Below, piece after piece: positions 36,568 to 64,000 of a stretch of 64,000 bases of DNA. The position numbers and the translations under genes were made by a program. This DNA is from Pyropia haitanensis (taxonomy: Eukaryota > Rhodophyta > Bangiophyceae > Bangiales > Bangiaceae). Positions within the stretch are counted from its first letter, which is position 1. Each line of letters starts with the position of its first letter. The notes under the pieces are model-generated. The model was not told the origin of the DNA. It did no database searches and saw only the letters and a program-made list of their open reading frames with translations. Where the stretch lies: assembly GCA_008729055.1 (NCBI GenBank), contig SDUX01000008.1, positions 5,295,756 through 5,359,755 of the forward strand, given 5' to 3'.

Positions 36568-36571
36568 AAAA
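36568..36571 (-). terminator. Pol III terminator of tRNA-Ser copy 1
   Basis: TTTT on the minus strand five nucleotides after the discriminator base; the minimal RNA polymerase III terminator. Confidence 0.6.
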
Positions 36572-36576
36572 GCGGG

Positions 36577-36670
36577 CGCGTCCTGCAGGATTTTCCGTCC
36601 TTTTCGAACCTGCGCGGGATAAACCCAACAGATTTCGAGTCTGTCGCCTTAACCGCTCGGCCAAAGACGC
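36577..36670 (-). tRNA. tRNA-Ser(CGA) copy 1, with a 12-nt T-loop insertion
   Basis: 94 nt. Acceptor GCGTCTT/AGGACGC with discriminator G; D-arm GCC/GGC; anticodon stem ACAGA/TCTGT with loop CTCGAAA (anticodon CGA, reads UCG). The long serine-type variable arm is TGGGTTTATCCCGC and the T-stem is GCAGG/CCTGC. The T-loop should be TTCGAAT but reads TTCGAA, then 12 extra nt (AAGGACGGAAAA), then T. Every stem is intact and a Pol III A box (TGGCCGAGCGG) is present. The B box reads GGTTCGAA and is split before its last bases. Removal of the 12 nt gives a canonical tRNA-Ser, so the insertion is most simply a noncanonical (ectopic) intron between positions 59 and 60. Ectopic tRNA introns are known in the red alga Cyanidioschyzon. 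Confidence 0.9.
36591..36602 (-). other. Putative ectopic tRNA intron, copy 1 (position 59/60)
   Basis: Sequence AAGGACGGAAAA on the minus strand. The exon bases TTCG (54-57) can pair with intron CGGA (one G-U pair) next to the T-stem, giving a relaxed bulge-helix-bulge-like shape with the 3' junction in an AAAT bulge. The boundary could shift by up to two A residues without changing the mature product. Confidence 0.65.
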
Positions 36671-37262
36671 TGCGATGCCACGTTTCCATAATTAATCATT
36701 ATTGTTCCAATGGATCGTTACTTTGTAAGCCCTGCTCAGCGATTTCCTCCCAAGAGCTCTCGCGCTCACCGCTCTTGAGAATGAAAAAAGTCCATCACAG
36801 GTACGATGCCAGTGAAGGTGCTTAGCTTGGTGACAAAGCTTGGTTCACTTTGGTGGCTGCGCAGGCGCCTCTGGTGGTAGGTAGCACGAGCCCTAGCATA
36901 TGGACCGGGCTGCGGGTTCAAACGGAGAGCACGTCAAGGTAAGCGTCCCAAAGGAACGGCTGGCCAAAGTGAGACGCACGCTCACCACAGACAGAACGTT
37001 CCTCCAGCCAATTGAGAGGAAGGGGCCGGGGAACGGCTCGACGGCGCCCCCAATGGTGCCGACGACGTCCAGGGCTTCCTGCTGAGAAGAACGTTACCGG
37101 TGCCCCACCATCTGGGGCACAAAAGGTTGACGAAGCCGGCGTGACGAATGGTGTACACACTTTCCATCGTCACTGCCGCCGCCCCATCCGCCATGATCAC
37201 CCTCGACAACGAAGGTGATTGCATGGCTACCGCAGACGCAAGCATCTGTCTCTTTTCTGTGC
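36671..37262. other. Intergenic region upstream of tRNA copy 1
   Basis: Balanced base composition. No gene could be supported. It ends at the left terminal inverted repeat of the element described next. Confidence 0.4.
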
Positions 37263-37400
37263 ACACCGCGCAGTGCCTGCTAAACCGTCTCAAACATTTC
37301 TTGCTTTTCCGTTGCTTGGCCTGGCCCGCAAGCGGTTGTCGACGTCTGTCTTGACAGTGTGAGCCCTAATTTTTCTCGGGTTTTTTTGATTTTGGTTTAC

Positions 37401-37631
37401 ATGGGTGCCTCTCGTTTCATCGACGAAGTGCATCTCACAGGGAAAGAAGCGCCCAGAGCTGAGCTGTCTGGGCGTACAAAATCACCTATGACGACGGTCC
37501 GTGGGGGTCGCTGTGATGACGGCTTTTCCTTGGCGCTGCTGAGCGGCAGCCACTGCAGGCTGTTGCAACTGGAAACGGTGGCGCGGCGCGGGGACGGTGC
37601 CCGCCGTCAACTTTGCTTCTGCCGATACTAG
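37401..37631 (+). pseudogene. Possible DDE-transposase fragment
   Basis: 76 codons starting MGASRFIDEVHLTGKEAPRA and ending LCFCRY. The F-I-D-E-V pattern followed by a basic GR motif resembles the second catalytic block of IS630/Tc1-mariner type DDE transposases, but the rest is too short or diverged to confirm. It lies inside the inverted-repeat element. Confidence 0.3.
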
Positions 37632-37766
37632 CTCCCTCTTTCGCCTCCTTCTTCCCTCAGCTCGCCTCCGCTTCCCCCTCGCTCTCGACGGTAGGTCTCG
37701 CCATGGAAATAGCATCCACTGAGGCGTAAAAGCCGGACCCTGGCTGACTGCGGCAGGTGGTGGTAA

Positions 37767-37916
37767 TTTTTCCGCCTTGAGGTGTGCGGCTGCACTGAGG
37801 TGCTGGCGCAGGTAAACGAGCAGCTGCTGTCTCAGCGGAAGAGCGAGAACTCGGCGCTGGTCCGGGTAGCCAAGACGGCCGAAGGCTTTGAACACCTGTT
37901 CCGTCCCGGCCTCTGA
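37767..37916 (+). pseudogene. Open protein-like fragment inside the element
   Basis: Open from just after a TAA to a TGA. The ~49-residue product has an ordinary composition (LEVCGCTEVLAQVNEQLL, then QRKSENSALVRVAKTAEGFE, then HLFRPGL). There is no ATG at its start, so it is an exon or a broken gene piece. No family was recognised. Confidence 0.3.
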
Positions 37917-38252
37917 TTGGGTACACTTGGACTGTCGTTGACTGTCCCGGCTTGGGAGATTTTTCGCAAAAGGCCGCGAAAGAGTGACAAAGCAGACTCT
38001 GCGCAAAAATCTTGCTCGTCCAAGCAGACTGGTTTGCGTGAAAGCAAGATCCCACGCAAGCCCGCAAGGGGCCTCGCAACCACAAAAGCTAACTTTTGGT
38101 GAGACGGTTTAGCAGGCACTGCGCCGTGTCCTCTGGCTCCTTGACGCGAATAGTATTGAAGGTGGCCCGTGCTCGCGTTTTCTGAGTTGTCCGCGCAACT
38201 GTGCGCGTGCAACCTCTGCCGGCTCGATTCTGTTCAACTTCGTTGCTCTCGC

Positions 38253-38258
38253 AAAAAA
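38253..38258 (-). terminator. Pol III terminator of tRNA-Ser copy 2
   Basis: TTTTTT on the minus strand five nucleotides after the discriminator base. Confidence 0.65.
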
Positions 38259-38263
38259 TACTT

Positions 38264-38357
38264 CGCGTCCTGCAGGAATTTTGTCATATTTCGAACCTAC
38301 GCGGGATGAACCCAACAGATTTCGAGTCTGTCGCCTTAACCGCTCGGCCAAAGACGC
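38264..38357 (-). tRNA. tRNA-Ser(CGA) copy 2, with a 12-nt T-loop insertion
   Basis: 94 nt, same orientation as copy 1 and 1.6 kb upstream of it in the direction of transcription. Acceptor, D-arm and anticodon arm are identical to copy 1. The variable arm reads TGGGTTCATCCCGC. The T-stem is GTAGG/CCTGC (one G-U pair). The T-loop is TTCGAA, then 12 nt ATATGACAAAAT, then T. Only one junction (59/60) restores TTCGAAT. The two insertions have equal length and identical position but unrelated sequence, while the exons are nearly identical. That pattern fits introns under little sequence constraint rather than random damage. It could also be a pseudogene family, but intact stems and a T6 terminator argue against this. 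Confidence 0.9.
38278..38289 (-). other. Putative ectopic tRNA intron, copy 2 (position 59/60)
   Basis: Sequence ATATGACAAAAT on the minus strand, A/T-rich in contrast to copy 1. No convincing 4-bp exon-intron central helix was found here, so a bulge-helix-bulge is not demonstrated. Confidence 0.6.
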
Positions 38358-52800: not shown

Positions 52801-55335
52801 TTAGGAGAGAGCGAAGAGCGGTGAGCATGGAAGGCGGCTTCAAGGAGGGGAGAGACAGGTTCATCAGGGGGGTGTGTTGATGTGGGTGAGGAGGATGGGG
52901 TGCGGGGAGGTTGGTGGAGAGGCGATGGTCTTGTACGCGCGGGGTGAAGATGTGAGGGAATGCGAGAGGCGAGTAGGTCTCTCCCCCTCGCCACCGTCAG
53001 CGGGCTAGGCGCCGCTACCGTGGCGTGGTGTGGGGGGGCGGCCTACGGGGGCGGCCATTTCCGCTGTTTGCACCTACAGGTACAACGAATAAAACGTGGA
53101 CGTGGCGCCATGTTGAAGCCCACGTGGCGAGGTTCAGAGCGACGTGGCGACCGTGGGCCGTCAGAACACCTCGCTGTGACGCCCTCGGGGGGTGCTGTCA
53201 GCCTTCTGCAGGTACTGTGGTTGGCCCATGAGTGAACGAAACTCAGTCTCTGATTGGGTGGTTCGTCGAAACAGTCCGCGGAATGGCCCCGTGAGGCATT
53301 AGTTCTGACGGCCCCAACTTATCACAAGAATAACGCAAACCCGGTTGCGTAGCAGATTCTGCCAATAGTGAGGATGCCACCGGGCCACGGCTGCCCAGAT
53401 CCGGCGGCAGTGGCGGTCTGCGCACGTTCCGTTTCTGGGGATCTCGCTGTAATGCAGCCCTAGAGGTCTCTATCAATCGACCATCGAAGGAGACCAACGA
53501 CGTCCAACGCGCCCCCGCTATGATGGACTCATCGAGCCACATCGATTTTCCATCGTCAAACCCCCTAAGATGGAGAATCATTGCAAGGAGACGTTGCAAC
53601 AGGGGGCGCCGGCGGTTGCCCCTGCTCACGGAAAGAGAGATCCCCAGTGGCAGGCATGGGCATGCAATGGGAGTGGGGAAAACGCTGCGGGGTTTGGCAG
53701 GGGTCACCACCCCGTCGGCGCCAGCGTTGGCGCCAGGCCCCCACCAGAAAACCTCCCTTCCATCGGGGGGGGGCGTCCGAACGAGGGGACACGGGGCTTG
53801 GCGGCGGCGGCGCGATCCCAGCGGGGATGCGCGCGGCTCGCAGCAGGGATTGGCTCGAAGGCCGCGGCACAAGACCCCCCGTTCCACTCGCACTTGCTTT
53901 CCCGGCCCACGCTATGTAGGCTGGGCCCCTCGGCAATGATCCCCGAGGAGCGCGCCCGCCCGCTCCCTTGGCGGCGTGACAACCGCGGAAGGTACTGTGC
54001 GTTGGCAGGGACGAAAGGTGCGCTATGGCGAGACGCGAGACCGAGTGGGTGGAGGTGGTGGCGTGCCGGAGCCGTCGAGACCAAGCGCGGCGAGGGGAGG
54101 CGGATCGTCCCAAAAGAATCCCGACCTTGTCAGGGGCGTGCGGTTTGACAGTGCAGCGCGATCGCCGCATTGGGCATGGACCCTTACAGCTCCTCGCCTT
54201 GACTGTTGCTGTCAGCCGCTCTGTCTCGTGGCCGGCACGCTTCTCTCCAACCGCCTCGAGATGCGGCCGACTGCATGGGTGGCCACAGTAGCCGGGCTGC
54301 AGCCAGCCCCACGGAGCCCCGCCATGTGCATCCGCCCGCAGCACCCTCCCTCGCCGCGATCAGGGCTGGGTAGCCACTACCCGTCCGAGCCACGTGCAGT
54401 CGCGGCCGTCCCTTCCACCACCGCCAGCGCCGCGTCGGTGGTAGCGGGGGGCGTTCCAGCTCGAGGCGGGTCAGTCACGGTGGCATCGCCCGCAGACACC
54501 CACCTCCCCCAGTAACAGCGCCGCCACGAGCAGACCAGCCCGGGACGCGCAGAGTGACAAGAGAACACCAGCCACATGAGAAAGAGCCAGTACCGCAGAG
54601 GAAGCTACCATGTGGGAATAAAGGTCTGTATCTTTCTGCCGACCCACCGCGGCGCCGACCGCGCCGCGGCGGGCCCAGCTATGTAGGTCACCCAGCACCG
54701 CATCCCCACTCATCGACCGCTCCCCCTCCCGCGCGGCCACCACTGTCTCGCCCAGACAGAGCCGTGTGGAAGGTGCCGATGGTCTTGTTGCGCGCCCAGC
54801 GACCAACAGCACGCCGGCCGTATTTGCGCTGTGATCACGTAAGTCCCATGGAGACTTGCCGTCCATCACCAGACCAGCTCACAAGTCACGGTGGCATCAA
54901 CGCCGTGCGATGCGGTTGCCGCCCGCCTGCCGTGGTCGCCAGCCGATGATAGTCCGCACCAAGGGACCAGGGCGGAGCCGAGTCGGGGCGGGCAGGGGGA
55001 GGCACTGGCGCTGTGGCCCCCTCTGCTTCTGTTCTGGCATGCTGGGTCAACGCCTCGCGCTGGGGAGCCGAGGAGACGGTGACGGAGGCGGTGGCGGTGG
55101 CGGTGGCAGGAGCAGTGCCCTTGGCAGTGACTGTTGTAGCGGCGGCAGCGGTGGCGGCGGCGGCAGCAACCGCTGCGGCCACCCGCACCGCGGCGGCGGC
55201 AGAGTGCGTGCACTGGGCAGCCTTTCGCAGGACTTCAAGATCGCGGCGGTCAGCACTGCACCCCCGCGGCGCGCCACAGCTGCTGGGCAAGGCGCGCGGA
55301 TGAGGCGCGGGGGGGGAGGGGGGGGAGCGACAGAG
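49828..55335. other. Intergenic, mixed composition, no supported gene
   Basis: Many short frames but none with a recognisable domain. 50650-52700 has balanced composition and contains a short inverted repeat (51638-51724), a (GGGC)n microsatellite (about 51341-51373) and AATAAA words near 53086 and 54616. The first ~300 bp is the upstream region of the surface protein. 54860-55300 is GC-rich; a minus frame there (QREALTQHARTEAEGATAPV) is weakly protein-like and might belong to the 3' end of the next gene. Confidence 0.35.
51638..51724. repeat. Short inverted repeat
   Basis: AAGTGGATGTTG at 51638-51649 is exactly inverted at 51713-51724. Similarity extends outward (GCTAAC against GTTAAT) and the loop is 63 nt. 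Confidence 0.6.
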
Positions 55336-56718
55336 TTAGGCTGCCGCCACCGCCGGAGAGAAGCAGGCGACTGCGCGGCCACCGCTTGGGCGCGGATGTA
55401 CTCGGACGAGGAGCGGGTGTCTGTCGGCGAGGTCGCCGACGTTGCCACCGACGGGGGCCCGACAGACGAGTATGGGCCGCCACCAGCCCAGTGCGCACCC
55501 GACGGCGGGCTGACGGCGCCCGCCGCCGGCGTGGCGCCGACGCCCGCACCACCGCCGCCGCCCGCACCGCCCTGCCCCTCGCTGTCCGCCGGGACTACCG
55601 GCTGGCCGGCCGCAGCACCGGCCGGCGGGCCCCCATGCCCAACCCCCTGCCGCCGGCGCCACCGCCGTCGCCGCCGCGCCCCCCCCCCTCACCGGCGGCG
55701 GCCTTGGCCGGCCACCCATCCTCCGACTCGTCCTCCGCGCGCGCCCGGCGCCGCCGCCGCACGCTGAGCGCCCACACCACCCCCCAATGAGGGCGCCCGC
55801 CACCCCCACCGCGACGACGCCAATGCCCGCCGCGGCGCCCGTCGACAGTGACGAGCCGCCGTCGGCCGCGGCGGCCACCGCCGAGGAGCACGCGCCGCCC
55901 GCGGGGGTGGGCGGCGAGCGGAACGCGACCCAGTACTTGGCGTTGGGGTCCGCCTCGGGCTCCGCCGCCGCCACGTGCAGCGCGCCCGGGGGGGCGAACC
56001 GCTTGGACTCGGCCGACACGGCGCCGCTCACGTTGATGGCGCGCTCCCACGACGCGGGCGCCGCGTCGACGGCAAACGTGGTCGTAAACGCCTCGGACAC
56101 GCGCGCCACCTCCCAGTCGGAGGACGATAGCAGCGGCGCGCCGGGGGGGGTGCCCGCGGGGTCCCCCGCCCAGTTGACCCGCACCGCCAGCGCGTGCGTG
56201 TCGGGGGCGGTGTCCCGCCAGCCGGTAAAGCCGATGCGCGTGCCCGCGGGGATGACGACCGACGGGCGGGCGTGCGTGACGTTGGTGTTGTTGACGGGCA
56301 GTTCCCAGAGCAGGGTGCTCCCCTGAGCGGCGCGGTTGGCGGGAGGGGGCACACAAAAAGGGGGATGGGGGGGTCGGCGAAGCGGACGCGTCAACAGGGA
56401 GCACGGGAGGGCGGCTGGGCACGAGGCAACGTAACCCGAGCGTGAGTTCCTGGCTCCCCCGCGCAAGGCAGCCGTCCCCTAGGACGTCTGGCAGCGTTCA
56501 CCCCCCTCGGTCACCGACGCGTCCCCACCCCCTTCCCCCCCGTTGCCTTCCCCTCGGTCCCCCCCCCGCTCGGGCCACCCCTCCCCAGACAGCGGGCACC
56601 CACCAAGAACACCCGCAAGTTTCGATAGTAAAACTGGATTCCCATATCGGTCGCGGTGCACGGACGTCTGGCGGGCGCCTGCGCCGCCGCGGCGAGCACC
56701 ATCATCCCCAGCACCGCA

Positions 56719-56750
<32 letters not shown>

Positions 56751-56774
56751 CGCGGCCGAGGCCCTGACCGACAT
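55336..56774 (-). CDS. Single-pass surface-type protein, two exons, frame breaks
   Basis: Exon 1 starts at 56774 ([15 protein letters not shown]; an upstream ATG exists at 56831) and gives a signal peptide followed by [17 protein letters not shown] 290-nt GT-AG intron (56612-56323) follows in phase 0, and exon 2 continues [20 protein letters not shown]. The ectodomain has sequons (NNTNVT, NVS). The transmembrane stretch is [20 protein letters not shown]. Directly after it the open frame turns to nonsense. A neighbouring frame, reached by one base in the G6 run at 55791-55796, gives a proper stop-transfer and acidic tail ([32 protein letters not shown]). A second shift near 55681-55688 leads to [20 protein letters not shown]. 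So the tail is probably longer, and the stated end is only the end of one frame. No family was recognised. Confidence 0.55.
56323..56612 (-). other. Spliceosomal intron of the surface protein gene
   Basis: 290 nt on the minus strand, GTGTTC at the 5' end and CGCCGCTCAG at the 3' end, phase 0 on both sides. It joins the signal-peptide exon to the ectodomain. Confidence 0.55.
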
Positions 56775-56954
56775 CCGTGGCGCGGCGCGGCGCCGGGGCG
56801 GCCGCCGCCCCAACGACGGGCGCCGCGCCATGCCGGCAAGCCACGAGCGGGGGAGACGGCCGCGGCGCGGGGCGGATCGCGGGGGTGTGGTGCGGCGAGG
56901 GGGTAGCAACGAGTGAGGGGGGCGGGGGGGGGGTCGCGACGGGGGGAACAAAAC

Positions 56955-58166
56955 CATGTCAATCGCCGGCGTCATCGTCTCTGGGTGGAGGACGCGGGCG
57001 CCAAAGTAGGCCAGCTCCGCCGCCTCCTTGTACGTCAGCCGCGGAATCACGACCGCGTCACGGACGACGCGCGGGTCGGCCGAGTAGACGCCCGCCACGT
57101 CGGTCCAGATGGTCACCTCGGACGCGCACAGGAGCCGCGCAACAGAGCTCGCCGAGTAGTCGGACCCGCCCCGGCCGAGCGTCGTCGACACCCCGTCCGG
57201 GTCGGCACAGATGAAGCCCGTCGCGACAACGAGCACCGTCGGGTTGGAGCGGGTCCACTCGGACAGCTTGGCGCGCGACACGTCCCAGTCGACGACGCGG
57301 CGGACAGAGCGGCCGAGCGACGGGGACGCGACGAGCACGTCCCGCGCGTCCAGCCACGAGCACCGGCCGCTCTTGCCGCCCGCGACGGCGTCGCCAAAGG
57401 CGGCGGCGACGCTGTCGTCGCCGCCCTGCCGGAGCACCCCCCACAGCAGCTGCGCGGACCACAGCTCGCCGTGGCCAACGACGAGATCGCTGATGCGCGC
57501 CGACGCGGACCGCGCAATCCACGCCGCCCGCAGCAGGTCACGAATGTCACGGAGGCCCGACGAGATGCTCGCAAGAAACGACGCGCGGGCGCCCGGCTGG
57601 AGGAGCTCTCCCGCGAGGCGCTCGTGCTGCTCCCGCAGCGCGTCGAGGCCCTCTAGGTAGTGCGAGCCGCTGCTGCGGTCACGCGCGGCGACGACGAGCG
57701 CGTCGAGCGCGTCGGTGACGCCGCCGACCGCCGGCACAACGACAAACAGCTTGTGCGACGCGGCGGCCTTGGCCTCGGCGCGGAGGATGGCGGCGACGTT
57801 GCAAAAGGCGGCCGCGTGGGCGAGGAAGGAGCCCCCAAACTTGTGCACCCGCCACGACGAGCCGTTGGCGTCGGCGCCAAGGACGGCACAGGCGGCGGTT
57901 TCGCGCAGCGGCACTGTCGGCAGCGTGCCCGCCGTCATACACAGCGGCAGCGGGGCAGCGGCGGCGGCGGCGGCTGCTGCCGCGGCCGCCGCGGCCGCCG
58001 CGGCCGCTGCCAGCGCCCCATCGTGGCGGCGGCCGCCACGCGCCGCCACCGCCGCGGCGGTGGCCGTGAACGCCGACGTGGCCGCCGCGACGGCGCGGGC
58101 GGGAGGAGGGGGCGCGCCGCGCGGCAAGGGCGTGCCGAACGCGGCCACCGCCGCGGGGGGAGCCAT
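56955..58166 (-). CDS. Aspartokinase domain of AK-HSDH type, 3' part missing
   Basis: 404 codons from the first ATG ([16 protein letters not shown]). Residues 1-~100 are Ala-rich with a few Arg, a plastid transit-like leader. The kinase domain follows: VHKFGGSF (phosphate/nucleotide loop), [52 protein letters not shown] followed by [23 protein letters not shown], and [27 protein letters not shown] and [10 protein letters not shown] are features of bifunctional aspartokinase-homoserine dehydrogenases. The domain phosphorylates aspartate, the first step to Lys, Thr and Met. After TPAIDM the frame meets GTTTTG and no longer resembles the family, so a 5' splice site at 56954 is likely. The regulatory ACT repeats and the dehydrogenase domain were not found downstream, where another gene begins about 180 bp away. 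Confidence 0.8.
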
Positions 58167-58363
58167 CGCCGCGGCCGCCACCACCCACCGGGGAGCACGG
58201 GAGGGGAACACGGGCCGGCACAGCCACACGAGCGCAACGGCGACACCACACACGGTGCTTGCAGTGGGGTGGGGGAGGGGAGGGGGGGGGGAGGCGGGTG
58301 GGGCAGGGGGGGGCGGCGGCGGGGGGGGGTGGCGGGGGGGGGGGGGGGGGGGGGGGGTTGCCG

Positions 58364-59832
58364 CCGCCGCCGACGCGCGCCGCCACGGCCCACGCGGCCG
58401 ACGAATCGGCCGCCGGCCGGGCGCGGCGGCCGCGGCGCCGTCGGCGGGCGCGGGCGGGCCAATCTCCCCGCACCGTCGACGTGACGCGAAGTGCCTCGCT
58501 CATAAAGCTCACATAGTCGACGAGCCACTCGTCGGGCGAGGCCCCCGCGGGGGGGATCCCCACCGCGGGCGCCGCCACCGCCCGCGCCTCCCGCGCGACG
58601 GTTGAGATCGGCGGGGGCGGGGGGGGGGGGCGCCCGTCGTCGGTGGGCAGGCTCACCCCGCGCCGCGCCATCGCGTGCCGCAGCCGGCCGCCGGCAGACG
58701 CCGGCGGCGGCGGCTGCGGCAGTGCGGCCGCCGCCGCCGCCGCCGCCGAGAAGGACTTGACGTGCGGCAGCGGCGGCGGCAGCACCGCCGCCGCCGCCGC
58801 CGCCGCAGTCGCGACACGGCGGGCGACCCCCAAGACCGGTCCCGGCGATGATGGCACCGACGCGCCCGCCGAGGCCATCACCGACGACGAGCCATACGAC
58901 GCGGTCGGCGACGCGTCTGGGGGAGTCGTCGCCGGCGGCGGCGCGGGCGCCGCCGCCCACGCCTCTGCCGGCGCCCACGGCGTCAGCGACGACGGGGACG
59001 CCTCGAGGCCACCGCCGCCGCCACCGCCAGCCACCCCAGTGCTGGCTGCCACCGCCGGTGGCGACGCGTCCCCCGCCGCCCGCGACGCGTCGGCGCGGCA
59101 CCGCCGGAGGCGGGCGGCGGCGCCATCCACGGTGGCGGAACAGCCCTCGGCGCGGCGGCCAACGACGGTGACGCGGCGGCCAAACGCGGCTGGCGCGAGC
59201 AGCCCGTCGTAATCCGACGGCGTCCGCAGCGTACTCGACCGCCGCCGCGCATCGGCCGACGGCGCCGCCGCCGCGGCGGCCGGCGGCGTCGCGGGGGGGG
59301 AGCCCGCCGCCGGCGGGCCGGCCACCGCGCGGGGCGTGGCCGCGGCGGAGGCCGCGGCAGACGGCGTCGCCGGCGCAGACCGCCGCCGCGGCCGGCCGGC
59401 GGTGCCGCCGTCGGCGTCGACGGCGGCGGCTGGCGGCGGATGCGCGCGGGTAGGGGGCAAAGGTAGTCGTCGAGGAGGGCGAGAGGGGGGGAGCGGGGGG
59501 GAGGCCGATGGTATTCGGGACGGCCGGGGGGTTTGCTGCTGGCGCCGACGGTGGGAGGGGTGCGGGGCAAGAGGGGGGGTGGGGGGGGGGGGGGGACCCG
59601 CCGGCCAGCGCTGTTGGCGACGCGTGTGGGGAGGCCGCGACCGGAATTGGCCGGCGATGCCCACCAATTCGCGCGCGGCGCGGTCGTGTGCCGCGCCGGC
59701 CACGCCGCGACGCGACGGGAGCGGCGGCGTCGGCGGGTACCGCTTTGCCTCCCGCCCACCGCCCAGCCGTGCGGTTGCCGACCCACCGCCGCGGACACAC
59801 GCGGCGGCCACGCTGGGCGCGGCGGGTACCAC
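58364..59832 (-). CDS. Hypothetical protein, ends uncertain
   Basis: A minus-strand frame whose central part looks truly coding: [20 protein letters not shown], then [20 protein letters not shown], and later [20 protein letters not shown]. Ala, Gly and Pro tracts lie between. The frame has no ATG at its 5' end (first in-frame ATGs are internal: [16 protein letters not shown]), so an upstream exon or frame is missing. The 3' end is obscured by a C/G-run block at 58315-58358 just before the aspartokinase gene. The upstream side runs towards the rDNA junction at 60048. No family was recognised. Confidence 0.35.
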
Positions 59833-60048
59833 CGCCCACGCCGCGTCCGCCTCGTCCCCGTGCGTCTGGTCCCCCGGAAGGCGCCCGCGGGAGGTGTGGC
59901 CGCCGCGGCGGACCGGCCGGTTTGAGCTGGCGAGGAGGGGGGGGGGGGGGGGGGGGGTCCCGCGTTTGGACCGGCGCTGCGCCTCGCCGGCGTTGCTGCG
60001 CCCGTGACGGTCGCGGTGGGGAAACGGGGGGGGCGTTGGTGGTGGCGG
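59833..60048. other. GC-rich DNA abutting the 18S truncation
   Basis: A G/C-rich stretch with a 17-G-rich run at 59938-59957. No gene is supported. It abuts rDNA at 60048/60049 with no repeat or target duplication visible. Confidence 0.4.
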
Positions 60049-60495
60049 CTTCGATCCCCTAACTTTCGTTCTTGATCAATGAAAACATGCATGGCAGATG
60101 CTTTCGCAGTTGTACGTCTTCCATCAATCCAAGAATTTCACCTCTGACAATGAAATACGAATGCCCCCAACCATCCCTATTAATCATTACTTGGTCACTG
60201 GAAACCAACAAAATAGAGCCCAAGTCCTATTCTATTATTCCATGCTCACATATTCAAGGCATTGGCCTGCTTTGAACACTTTACTTTCTTCACAGTAAAC
60301 GGTCGGCCCGCAGGTATGAACGCGCGGAACCAGTCAAGGCCCCACACACCGCGTCCCGACAAAAGGAGACAAACTCCCACTGGCACAAGGGCAGAAGCCC
60401 GGCCCGTGAGGGCGCTCCGAGGTCCGACTACGAGCGTTTTAACTGCAACAACTTTAATATACGCTATTGGAGCTGGAATTACCGCGGCTGCTGGC
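60049..60495 (-). rRNA. 18S rRNA, second exon, truncated
   Basis: Begins GCCAGCAGCCGCGGTAATTC directly after the group I intron. It includes the conserved TATATTAAAGTTG, GGTGAAATTCTTGGATT and GAACGAAAGTTAGGGGATCG stretches and stops matching 18S after GGATCGAAG at 60049. The expected ACGATCAGATACC is replaced by GC-rich unrelated DNA. About the last 40-45% of an 18S gene is absent, together with ITS, 5.8S and 28S. Confidence 0.95.
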
Positions 60496-61121
60496 CATTC
60501 ATACCCGACAACGCTGCGCCCCATAAGACGCTTTGTCGCCTTCCACAGTCCTCCGGGGCGAGCAAAACCCCGTTACTCCTGTGGACCTGGTTTTTTCCCA
60601 GTGGATTGGACTCTCCCTTAAGCTTGCGCCCACTCCATTAGAGTCTCTGAAGGTTCGCCTTTGCATCTCGCCACGCGGCCACCAAAAGGAGGCCGCATGG
60701 AAAAAGCACTCGCGCTTCCCTGCGGATCAACCCTACCCTTGACGTTTTTACCATCCATGTACCACTACGTACACTGCTGCGTCCTGAACGATTGCTCGCT
60801 CTCACCTCTCGGCGGACCGCGGTAGTCAAAGGCCTGGCGGGCACTCCCCGACAATTTAGAAGTGTATGATGGGGGCTCATTGATTCTCCCAAAAGAAAAT
60901 AGGTTCCCATCTTTTGCCTGCTTCCACAAGTCAAACAGAATAGCACGGCGGGAAACGACAAGATCCTCCCAGAGTATGCTGGTCGCTCTCGTTGTGTGCC
61001 GGACCTGCTTCCGGAAAGAGACATCTGGCGCTGTTTTATTTTAACGAGGGCTTGACGCTTCACGCGGTGCGCCTGTGCATGCGATGAGAGCACGAGGCGA
61101 GCAACGAGTGGAACTAGGTTC
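60496..61121 (-). other. Group I intron in 18S at the E. coli-516 position
   Basis: 626 nt inserted after GGGCAAGTCTGGT and before GCCAGCAGCC. The last intron base is G, as expected for group I. Core segments are visible near the 3' end: an R-like TTCAGAGACTCTA and an S-like AAGGGAGAGTCC, which pair through GACTC/GAGTC to give P7, and a Q/P-like TGATCCGCAGGGAAG upstream. Bangiophyte red algae are known to carry group IC1 introns at this site, some with remnants of a His-Cys homing endonuclease gene on the opposite strand. A 60-codon open frame on the + strand (60862-61044) has no convincing His-Cys box, so no endonuclease is called. Confidence 0.9.
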
Positions 61122-61687
61122 ACCAGACTTGCCCTCCAATGGATCCTCGATAAGGGATTTAAATTGTTCTCATTCCAATTAGAAGGCCCAAAGGGCCCCC
61201 TATTGTTATTTTTTGTCACTACCTCCCCGAGTCGGGATTGGGTAATTTGCGCGCCTGCTGCCTTCCTTGGATGTGGTAGCCGTTTCTCAGGCTCCCTCTC
61301 CGGAATCGAACCCTAATTCCCCGTTACCCGTCGACACCATGGTAGACCAATACTCTACCATCGAAAGTCGATAGGGCAGAAATTTGAATGAGCAGTCGCC
61401 GGCACAAGGCCATGCGATCCGACAAGTTATTGTGAATCATCTCAAAGCGCTCTGGAAGGAGCACGATGGTTTTTTATCCAAAAAATACCACCCTTCATGA
61501 GTCGGGCGTTGCGGCATGTATTAGCTCTAGAATTACTACGGTTATCCAAGTAGTGTGGTTCTCAAAGGAACTATAACTGTTTTAATGAGCCATTCGCAGT
61601 TTCACGTGTATAAAAGTGTTTATACTTAGACATGCATGGCTTAATCTTTGAGACAAGCATATGACTACTGGCAGGATCAACCAGGTA
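61122..61687 (-). rRNA. 18S rRNA, first exon
   Basis: Starts TACCTGGTTGATCCTGCCAG at 61687 and runs through AATTAGGGTTCGATTCCGGA and GGGCAAGTCTGGT without visible breaks, 566 nt, the normal length for this part of a eukaryotic 18S. Confidence 0.97.
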
Positions 61688-64000
61688 AATAGGTACATGT
61701 ACTTTGAGGAAAAAAAAAAAAAGGGCGGGAGAGCCAGCCACGCGATGGGCGGAAAATGTCAAAAGGGCAATGCATCTCCCATCGCAGGCGGGGCGGCACT
61801 TCCTTTTTTTTTTTTTTTCTCTTGTACCAAGTCGCTGGCAAACGGCAGGGATGTGCCTATATTGCAAGGCAATCCACGTGCGCCGTCGCCCGCGGCACAT
61901 CTGCTCAAGCATTTTCTCCTTGTTGCAGGTGCGTCTTTTTTTTTCCGTACAAAAATGATGGATCGTGGGGTGGGCCAGCAGAGGCCGTTGTCTTGGAAAA
62001 TCCGCGCGTGACCCCACGACGGTTTCGTAACGGCGCACCTTTGCTCTCTGCTGGGTTTTTCTTGGCGGTTTTTTTGTTCTTCCCGCGCTTTTTTGCCCCT
62101 TTTTCCCCCCCCGCGCCATCCCAGCATAGTAATGCCAACCGACGAGCGGTCGACAGGTCACTTGTGTGAGGAATCTTCACACTTGTTCGTTATTTTCCTT
62201 CCTCTCCAGTCGAACCGGATGGTACTGCGCAGTCCCCCCAAGTACGAGAGACTGTGCCGACTACTTTGTGAGGACCCCCCCCCTGTACCCCCACCGCCCG
62301 TTCCCGCCACCAAAAAAAAGGTAACGGTCGGGTGTGTGTGTGGGGATGGCGGGAGACAAGCCACTCACTCAGAGACGTTTCTTGAGGAGGCCGCCCTTTT
62401 TTTCTTATAAAAAAAAAAGGGCACTTTCCCAAGGTATGTATGCGAGGTAAAGGCGCGCGAAGTGAGCGCCTAAACCTCTTCCATTGTTTTGTCATCAACT
62501 GGAAGGTGTACCCCCATGGCAAAACGTTTTTCCCCAAACAAGGTCGTAGCATGGATAGAGGAGCAAGCAAGGACTTTTTGTCCCCCCCTTGTCCTGTACC
62601 TACTCATGCACTCCGCGTATATATGTGCACCTCATATATACTCTTAGAGCCTCAGGCTGTTTTTTTTGAATCAAAAAAAACACGCCAGGCTTGATACCGT
62701 CGAAAAAAAAAAAGAGGCCGCGCGAGTCTCAGACAGATGATCTTCTCAAGCGTTATCGGCCAGAGCCCAAGCCTGGAAACACTAAATAAGAACAGACAGG
62801 AAAAAAAAGGCCCCAGCCGGCGTTCCTCCCAAGAGTGCAACGTACACAATACATCATGCGGCTTTCAGGCGAACACCCATGCGAGTGGCGAAGCTCACAC
62901 TCTGCATTCTTACGCAAGGGCCCCGCCTCAAGAAATCATACGCTCTAGCTAGGAACTTTTGTCCCTGCCTGCCTTCCTTATGCCAGACCCAGCTCTGGTC
63001 TTTTGCTTGGGAAAAAAGGGACTTCCCTCCCTGCTCCCTCTTTCGACATGGAGAAAAACTCCCGTTCGGTGCCCTGGGCTAAGGAGCACCTTGAACCAGG
63101 CCGTCCACCCGGGAAAAGAGATGGACGGCGCCTCAGAAACAAAAAAGAATGGACCCCTTTGCGCTACACGGAGATATGTCCATAGACGGGGCTGCGACGA
63201 TACGACGCCCTCCAAGGGAAACGTTAACGCTTCAATATGCGGATTGATACCACAGCCAAGGACTGTGATAGCGCGCCCGCTACAACAAATGATACCACGC
63301 CCCGGTAGGGGGTCGAGCAGAGCTCCAGAATATTCCCATAGACCGTCACGGGTAAAGATGCCGTCCACCACAGGAACGCACAACTTAAGGATTTCGGCAT
63401 GGCTAAGCAGCCTCCTCAGAGCGGCACTTGGGGAGGGGACGCCACCCATCAACCCGCCAGCTTCCCCGTTACAAAAAACGGCACAACGGTGGCACTCCTG
63501 TCCGCCGTATAACAATACCCCGGTTCCAATGGAAATGACCCCCTTTCTCATAACGGATAGGCTTATGGCGAATCTCCGCGTTACTAGTATACAGCCTTAG
63601 TATACGTTCAGGGGGCAAGCGCTTTTTTCGCAAACCATCAAGACCGGTTTGTGATATCATAAGGAGACCCGGTTTCCCCAATTCTTTCGTATCGTCCCAA
63701 CGGACCACCGTCAATGAGGCGAGAAAGGCAGACGGGTAACCAAACCCTTCCCCCGTTTCTCATTCACGACGGGTGCCCTACCACAGCTTGGGGCATTTCT
63801 ACAAGAGCCCCCTTTTTTTTTGCCCAACGGACCCTTCCCAAGCGCAAAAAAAGGGGGCGCACACGTGCAGTGGTCTGGTACCAGCGTTGCACTCGTATAG
63901 GAAGTCAATACGGAACGATATGGACGGGTCCACAAGGTCATGACGACGGCCTGCGGTATTTTTTTTTTTTCCCACAGCGCCTGGTGGGGAGGTGAGCGGA
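61688..64000 (-). other. External transcribed/intergenic spacer of the rDNA
   Basis: Sequence upstream of the 18S 5' end on its coding strand. It has many T and A runs (for example 61803-61817, 62396-62419, 63961-63970) and balanced composition unlike the rest of the window. No tandem repeats of the usual spacer type and no gene were recognised. The Pol I promoter could not be located. Confidence 0.6.

Follow-up and report, generated by a model that had tools for sequence, protein, structure and literature searches.

Can the tRNA genes of a nucleus be interrupted in the T-loop and still supply working tRNAs? This question is raised by a stretch of 64,000 nucleotides (nt), here called the window, which corresponds to C10:5295756-5359755 of a 52.9-Mb assembly in 136 contigs. 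Two tRNA-Ser(CGA) genes of the window each carry 12 extra nt in the T-loop and, to our knowledge, the T-loop of eukaryotic tRNA genes is not normally interrupted. The inserts are very probably ectopic tRNA introns of the Cyanidioschyzon kind, lying in working Ser(CGA) genes and likely to be excised by a Sen-type endonuclease. All genome results reported here come from this one assembly and from DNA sequence only. The GC content of the window is 70.7%; values of 64-68% are given for Bangiales genomes and of 37-57% for other red algae (PMC7423979). The genome is therefore probably that of a red seaweed of the Bangiales (nori) type.

Two interrupted tRNA-Ser(CGA) genes

The two genes and their parts are as follows (window coordinates).

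36577..36670, minus strand: tRNA-Ser(CGA) gene 1 with 12-nt T-loop insert, G73 at 36577 (Rfam RF00005, 50.3 bits; sequence)
36591..36602, minus strand: insert of gene 1, sense AAGGACGGAAAA, between positions 59 and 60 (sequence)
36635..36637, minus strand: anticodon CGA of gene 1 (sequence)
36568..36571, minus strand: T4 run, likely Pol III terminator of gene 1, beginning 6 nt past G73 (sequence)
38264..38357, minus strand: tRNA-Ser(CGA) gene 2 with 12-nt T-loop insert, G73 at 38264 (sequence; BLAST; partial Rfam match)
38278..38289, minus strand: insert of gene 2, sense ATATGACAAAAT, between positions 59 and 60 (sequence)
38322..38324, minus strand: anticodon CGA of gene 2 (sequence)
38253..38258, minus strand: T6 run, likely Pol III terminator of gene 2, beginning 6 nt past G73 (sequence)

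In both genes the insert is flanked by TTCGAA (positions 54-59) and T60, and the acceptor stem, T-stem, G73 and anticodon CGA are all intact. Gene 2 is 93% identical to gene 1 over 93 nt by BLAST. The Rfam tRNA match of gene 1 puts the extra residues in the T-loop, while that of gene 2 is partial and scores 25.6 bits, under the gathering score of 29. The initial annotation had described both as complete tRNA-Ser(CGA) genes with 12 extra nt at 59/60, and its coordinates and insert sequences proved correct. Because of A runs, the insert of gene 1 can slide by 1-2 nt, and a position at 58/59 is possible. In gene 2, TTCGAAT is restored only by placement at 59/60; TTCGATT, the loop left by an insert at 58/59, is a normal T-loop too.

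With bacterial settings, ARAGORN found no tRNA in the window. With introns allowed, all four Ser(CGA) genes of the genome were missed and one interrupted Lys gene was called Ser(cga); tRNA gene counts for such genomes may therefore be too low.

Ser(CGA) copies in the genome

A BLAST search with gene 1 (E <= 10) gave four Ser(CGA) loci, the two window genes, C7:3363542 and C11:6972525, which sit on three multi-megabase contigs. Their inserts measure 12, 12, 12 and 13 nt and occupy one common position. When the 81-nt uninterrupted form was used as the query, the four loci matched positions 1-68 only (to A59), and the single additional match was Ser(AGA), at 79%. An uninterrupted Ser(CGA) gene set had been named as a finding that would speak against the introns. 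At the DNA level, all four loci are interrupted, and no intact Ser(CGA) gene was found in the assembly by these two queries, one with the interrupted and one with the uninterrupted form.

The mean pairwise identity of the four loci is 0.99 for the 5' body and 1.00 for the 3' body, with two variable columns among 82 positions. The inserts are 0.35 identical, against 0.37 expected from composition, and the flanks 0.34 (upstream) and 0.23 (downstream). Since the body is kept and the insert stands at composition-level identity, the insert drifts like flanking DNA, and only its position and approximate length are maintained. The view that the insert sequence is not conserved is thus borne out. The conserved length claimed along with it holds approximately, at 12-13 nt in Ser(CGA), but not strictly at 12, as the range is 11-15 nt over ten T-loop inserts. 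A run of 4-6 T begins no more than 28 nt downstream of each of the four genes. Chance is excluded, because two more loci on other contigs share the insert position and five other tRNA species also have T-loop inserts.

Short inserts across the tRNA gene set

Short inserts were read in 42 tRNA genes, at least 38 of them besides the four Ser(CGA) genes. They lie in the D-loop, the anticodon loop or the T-loop, and 13 of the 42 genes have inserts in two loops.

D-loop, placed at 20/21: 25 genes, 24 distinct introns, 10-23 nt; three Lys(CUU), three Tyr, one Cys, five Arg(ACG), five Arg(CCG) (two share one intron), one Arg(UCG), three Trp, two Leu(CAG), one other Leu and one Ser(AGA)
Anticodon loop (37/38): introns of 11-21 nt, 18 of them distinct, in 19 genes
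T-loop, at 59/60: 11 genes, 10 distinct introns, 11-15 nt; four Ser(CGA), three eMet (two share one intron), one Ser(AGA), one Ile(UAU), one Lys(UUU) and one Trp

These genes were taken from an Rfam tRNA scan of the genome and from five gapped patterns, picked by eye and confirmed by reading the sequence. The Rfam scan gave 48 matches from the best 63 of 471 candidates scored, and the window genes are absent among the matches listed. The patterns require TGGC or TAGC at position 8 and GTTCRA, so that tRNAs with other A or B boxes fall outside them. The insert counts are lower bounds, because the patterns fix letters of both boxes and the Rfam scan scored part of the candidates. Four patterns gave 25, 86, 39 and 49 matches, against 14, 61, 29 and 27 for the reversed-pattern controls. 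The fifth gave 174 against 174, and its genes were taken from among the matches listed. Numbers so comparable to the reversed controls imply that many pattern rows are chance. Loci L076, L077, L078, L079, L080, L087 and L088, in which the cloverleaf is unconvincing or unclear, and the partial Rfam matches L046-L049 were read and left uncounted. Introns shared between genes were counted once (L071 = L070; L089 = L085). Splice points were placed by hand through exon continuity, not by best pairing.

In all nine Arg(ACG) and Trp copies read (L043-L045, L058, L062, L067, L072, L074 and L086), the D-arm is GGCAAAATTGG, which by eye leaves about two D-stem pairs in the mature form, an unusual arrangement. 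Among the Arg(CCG) genes L063, L064, L065 and L070, inspection by eye reveals a compensatory D-stem change in L070 (13-22, T-A to A-T) and a mismatch at the same place in L063. Separately, L078, L079 and C7:3709910 are tRNA-like and share TGGCCTAGTGGC and a TTTTGC stretch; by eye they resemble a family of short interspersed nuclear elements (SINEs) or of tRNA-derived repeats.

Intact sister genes as controls

For several tRNA species, the mature form can be compared among sister genes. After insert removal, all six Lys(CUU) genes compared are identical: two are intact, one has an anticodon-loop insert, and three have D-loop introns of 13, 17 and 23 nt. The same is true of five of five Val(CAC) genes, two of which are intact, and of three of three Ser(AGA) genes. 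Among the latter, L027 is intact, L073 has a D-loop insert, and L091 has inserts in both the anticodon loop and the T-loop. The T-loop insert of L091 lies exactly where it lies in Ser(CGA), for which no intact sister was found for comparison of the mature form. Ser(AGA) is a direct control for the Ser(CGA) finding. The three Trp genes are also identical after insert removal, with no intact sister. Agreement is somewhat looser, with 1-4 mismatches, among the genes for Tyr, for Cys and for Leu(CAG), one flanking base being counted in the figures for Tyr. The interrupted Cys gene differs from the intact one by 2 bases, and two interrupted Leu(CAG) genes differ from the intact copy by 1 and 4.

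The proposal that noncanonical T-loop introns related to those of Cyanidioschyzon occur in a bangiophyte is therefore supported, by the four of four Ser(CGA) loci and by intact and interrupted Ser(AGA) genes with one mature sequence. Such sets amount to natural controls, in which one genome holds the same mature tRNA both in intact genes and in genes with an insert in the D-, anticodon or T-loop.

Pairing at the insert boundaries

In a bulge-helix-bulge (BHB) splice motif, exon positions -6 to -3 pair with intron positions -6 to -3, and the 3' bulge consists of intron -2 and -1 and the first exon base. The pairing register was derived from the D-loop inserts and afterwards applied to the T-loops. 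Over the 24 distinct D-loop inserts, a mean of 3.12 of the four pairs can form, compared with 1.80 in shuffled introns (0/20,000) and 2.18 when introns are swapped between genes (0/20,000 reach the observed value). This register is the top of 45 tried, and 16 of the 24 inserts score 3-4. It can also be seen that the pairing follows the exon: GUUG/CAAC in Tyr, GUCG with CGAU or CGGU in Lys, UUGG/CCAG in Arg and CGGU/ACCG in Leu. In the anticodon loop, C32-G(-3), the anticodon-intron pair of eukaryotic introns, is present in 18 of 18 distinct introns.

The ten distinct T-loop inserts have a mean of 2.70 pairs, compared with 1.75 after shuffling (11/20,000). C56 pairs with G(-5) in nine of the ten and U55 pairs with position -4 in nine of the ten. 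G(-5) itself is kept in 9/10 and A(-4) in 8/10, the corresponding figures within Ser(CGA) being 3/4 and 2/4. The six inserts outside Ser(CGA) form 16 of 24 pairs where 9.2 are expected (44/20,000). In minimum-free-energy (MFE) folds of the T-arm, Ser(AGA) has a clear helix of six pairs with a 3-nt bulge, one eMet has a five-pair helix with a 4-nt bulge, and gene 1 has a 4-bp helix, UUCG/CGGA, with a 4-nt 3' bulge. Six others of the ten give short helices in varied register.

Several results of the same analysis count against the inserts being introns of this type. Five D-loop inserts (Cys, three Arg(CCG) and one Leu) score 2, and the three Trp D-loop inserts score 1-2, reaching 3-4 only after a shift of one nucleotide. 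The four-pair pairing of the anticodon-loop introns is weak, at 2.10 versus 1.49 (474/20,000); this figure covers ten introns, and eight more enter the C32-G(-3) count only. For the T-loop the register is not the unique best, since of 45 registers two score higher (2.9 and 2.8, versus 2.7) and one ties. Swapping of T-loop introns gives no information, as the exon side is almost the same in every gene. Taken alone, Ser(CGA) shows no significant BHB pairing (11/16 pairs versus 8.4 expected; 1698/20,000 shuffles), and the MFE T-arm fold of gene 2 has no helix beyond the T-stem. Overall, the evidence for a splice motif is strong in the D-loop, fair when all T-loop inserts are taken together and weak when those of Ser(CGA) are considered alone.

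Alternative explanations

If the inserts were never removed, the mature tRNA would have an enlarged T-loop with the extra nt looped out between 59 and 60, and TTCGAATCC would never be uninterrupted in it. Positions 59-60 bulge out of the T-loop fold, and a retained insert is structurally conceivable there, which is a further point against excision. All four Ser(CGA) genes found carry the insert at this single, structurally tolerant place, its sequence varies freely, and the lack of a significant splice motif in Ser(CGA) alone fits the same idea. Retention is nevertheless unlikely. Both Ser(AGA) and Trp have sister genes that lack the T-loop insert and whose mature sequence is otherwise identical. 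The D-loop and anticodon-loop inserts of the same genome show splice-type pairing, and an insert in one of these two loops is also present in 7 of the 11 genes that have one in the T-loop. Moreover, G(-5) and A(-4) are kept by the T-loop inserts as a group, though less so within Ser(CGA).

Alternatively, the interrupted genes might be pseudogenes, and UCG might be decoded by a different serine tRNA or by the product of an intact gene that is absent from the assembly. According to one review, short D- and T-arm insertions usually affect one of many synonymous eukaryotic genes and are taken as pseudogenes (PMC4090602). An assembly of 136 contigs may be incomplete, and the tRNA scan covered part of the candidates, as stated above. 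Decay of a pseudogene would, however, hit the body too, and the body is 99-100% identical, with two variable columns against an insert at composition-expected identity. The stems, anticodon, G73 and downstream T runs of Ser(CGA) are intact, and the interruption is found in every copy recovered, spread over three contigs. It is thus highly improbable that these genes are dead.

The remaining candidates were rejected: an organellar or bacterial origin of the window genes by the eukaryotic small-subunit (SSU) rRNA in the window and by the gene's presence on three multi-megabase contigs, an origin through recent tandem duplication alone by the low identity of the flanks (0.34 and 0.23) and two further copies on other contigs, a SINE-like origin of the Ser(CGA) genes by their intact body and four copies, and group I self-splicing introns by the insert length of only 10-23 nt, the group I catalytic core being some 200 nt or more.

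Splicing machinery and proposed mechanism

Two proteins with a tRNA-intron-endonuclease catalytic domain are encoded in the genome, and a Sen54 domain was also found.

C10:3831560: Sen34-like, PF01974, 66 bits
C9:5461457: Sen2-like, PF01974, 32 bits
C9:1446483: Sen54 N-terminal domain, PF12928, 52 bits

The Sen34-like protein is nearest to solved Sen34 chains (best E 4.6e-12) and by eye keeps the Tyr, His and Lys of the TSEN34 triad; the Sen2-like protein is nearest to solved Sen2 chains (best E 4.7e-7). An RtcB ligase is encoded in two adjoining pieces on C3. The presence of Sen15 is doubtful, as the only candidate, C4:3297966, is weak (17.3 bits, E 0.156; 30.4 bits with neighbours and 19.1 alone, cut-off 22).

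With this machinery, excision of the putative introns could proceed as follows. In the pre-tRNA, the T-stem would be lengthened by a short helix formed by U54-G57 with the 3' end of the intron, and intron -2 and -1 together with nucleotide 60 would form the bulge on the 3' side. The Sen2/Sen34 endonuclease would cut after 59 and before 60, and the halves would be joined at 59/60, probably by RtcB, to give TTCGAATCCTGC without the insert. The product would be the standard TTCGAAT loop that the D-loop/T-loop elbow needs. For Ser(CGA), of which no intact gene was found, the cell would depend on this splicing to make its UCG-reading tRNA.

A single Sen enzyme may cut all three insert classes, with the T-loop introns as relaxed BHB substrates. 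The initial annotation had supposed that a splicing activity recognising the T-loop would be needed. There is no need for a dedicated activity of this kind, since the inserts of all three loops can be interpreted as substrates of a single Sen-type machinery. In the human TSEN complex, TSEN34 senses the D- and T-loop and TSEN54 holds the tRNA body (PMC10539383). An insert in the D- or T-loop would disturb the elbow, and the endonuclease of this alga therefore probably relies more on the local motif than on the elbow, as proposed for C. merolae (PMC3978253). The Ile(UAU) precursor of C. merolae probably loses its D- and T-introns ahead of the one in the anticodon loop, and Pus4 in vitro leaves U55 unmodified while the T-intron is present (PMC9602550). 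By analogy, a similar intron order and Pus4 dependence would be expected here.

A more far-reaching version is also possible but doubtful. The UCG-reading tRNA-Ser(CGA) might be made only through excision of a T-loop intron of 12-13 nt that lacks a true BHB. For this tRNA, the endonuclease would recognise the UUCGA loop and where it sits on the T-stem, rather than the D/T elbow gripped by human TSEN34. This would constitute a distinct, loop-directed splicing.

Other features of the window

Between the two tRNA genes, inverted repeats of 30 nt, 97% complementary and 807 nt apart, delimit window positions 37263-38129. This element looks like a non-autonomous DNA transposon. A further gene lies towards the end of the window.

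60019..61684, minus strand: eukaryotic SSU rRNA gene with an insert of ~630 nt (Rfam)

The SSU match extends only to position 1116 of the 1831 in the model, and window 54000-64000 gave no additional match to SSU or large-subunit (LSU) rRNA. A group I intron match lies within the SSU insert at 60587-60906 and scores 25.8 bits, under the gathering score of 50; the insert is likely a group I intron. Additionally, a non-tRNA pattern match at about 63076-63166 recurs at C10:5365700 and C10:5372576 (6.87-kb spacing) and on many other contigs, perhaps as a tandem rDNA unit or a dispersed repeat.

Comparison with known systems

Ectopic nuclear tRNA introns are known mainly from one hot-spring unicell and one relict nucleus (PMC3978253, PMC4090602). 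Among the titles and abstract openings listed in searches of open-licence literature, none was found on non-canonical introns in nuclear tRNA genes of Porphyra, Pyropia or any other multicellular red alga. Their occurrence in a GC-rich, Bangiales-like genome, with at least 42 tRNA genes affected, would turn such introns into a broader red-algal feature.

The unicell, C. merolae, resembles the present genome in several respects. In both, Ile(UAU) is interrupted in the anticodon loop and in the T-arm (PMC3978253, PMC9602550, PMC4090602), the junctions are of BHB type, here most clearly in the D-loop, and Sen2, Sen34 and Sen54 are present. C. merolae is described in PMC3978253 as being without apparent Sen15, the presence of which is doubtful here. 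The genomes differ in size, at 16.5 Mb there and a 53-Mb assembly here, with 70.7% GC in the window. In the permuted Gly(CCC) genes of C. merolae, the T-loop intron lies at 55/56 (PMC3978253, Table 1), in contrast to 59/60 here. Unlike C. merolae, as far as those sources describe it, three tRNA species occur here as both intact and interrupted genes with one mature sequence.

The relict nucleus is the nucleomorph of the cryptophyte Guillardia theta (Kawach et al. 2005), also red-algal-derived, which has non-canonical insertions of 3-24 nt, including some in the D and T arms, many of them without a defined BHB (PMC4090602, PMC3978253). There, RT-PCR proves excision, even of 3-nt T-arm introns (PMC4090602, PMC3978253). 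That genome is the remnant of an endosymbiont, whereas the present case concerns a full nuclear genome with intact sister genes and is known from DNA alone. Archaeal BHB introns likewise occupy several positions, including the T-loop, are cut by the same endonuclease family and have strict or relaxed BHB motifs (PMC6379350, PMC3978253, PMC4033280). Unlike those of archaea, the inserts described here are 10-23 nt long and occur with eukaryotic Sen subunits and a eukaryotic tRNA set. The kind of intron is thus already known; what is new is a broad, copy-rich case in a new lineage, of which the interruption of Ser(CGA) in every copy found is the most striking part.

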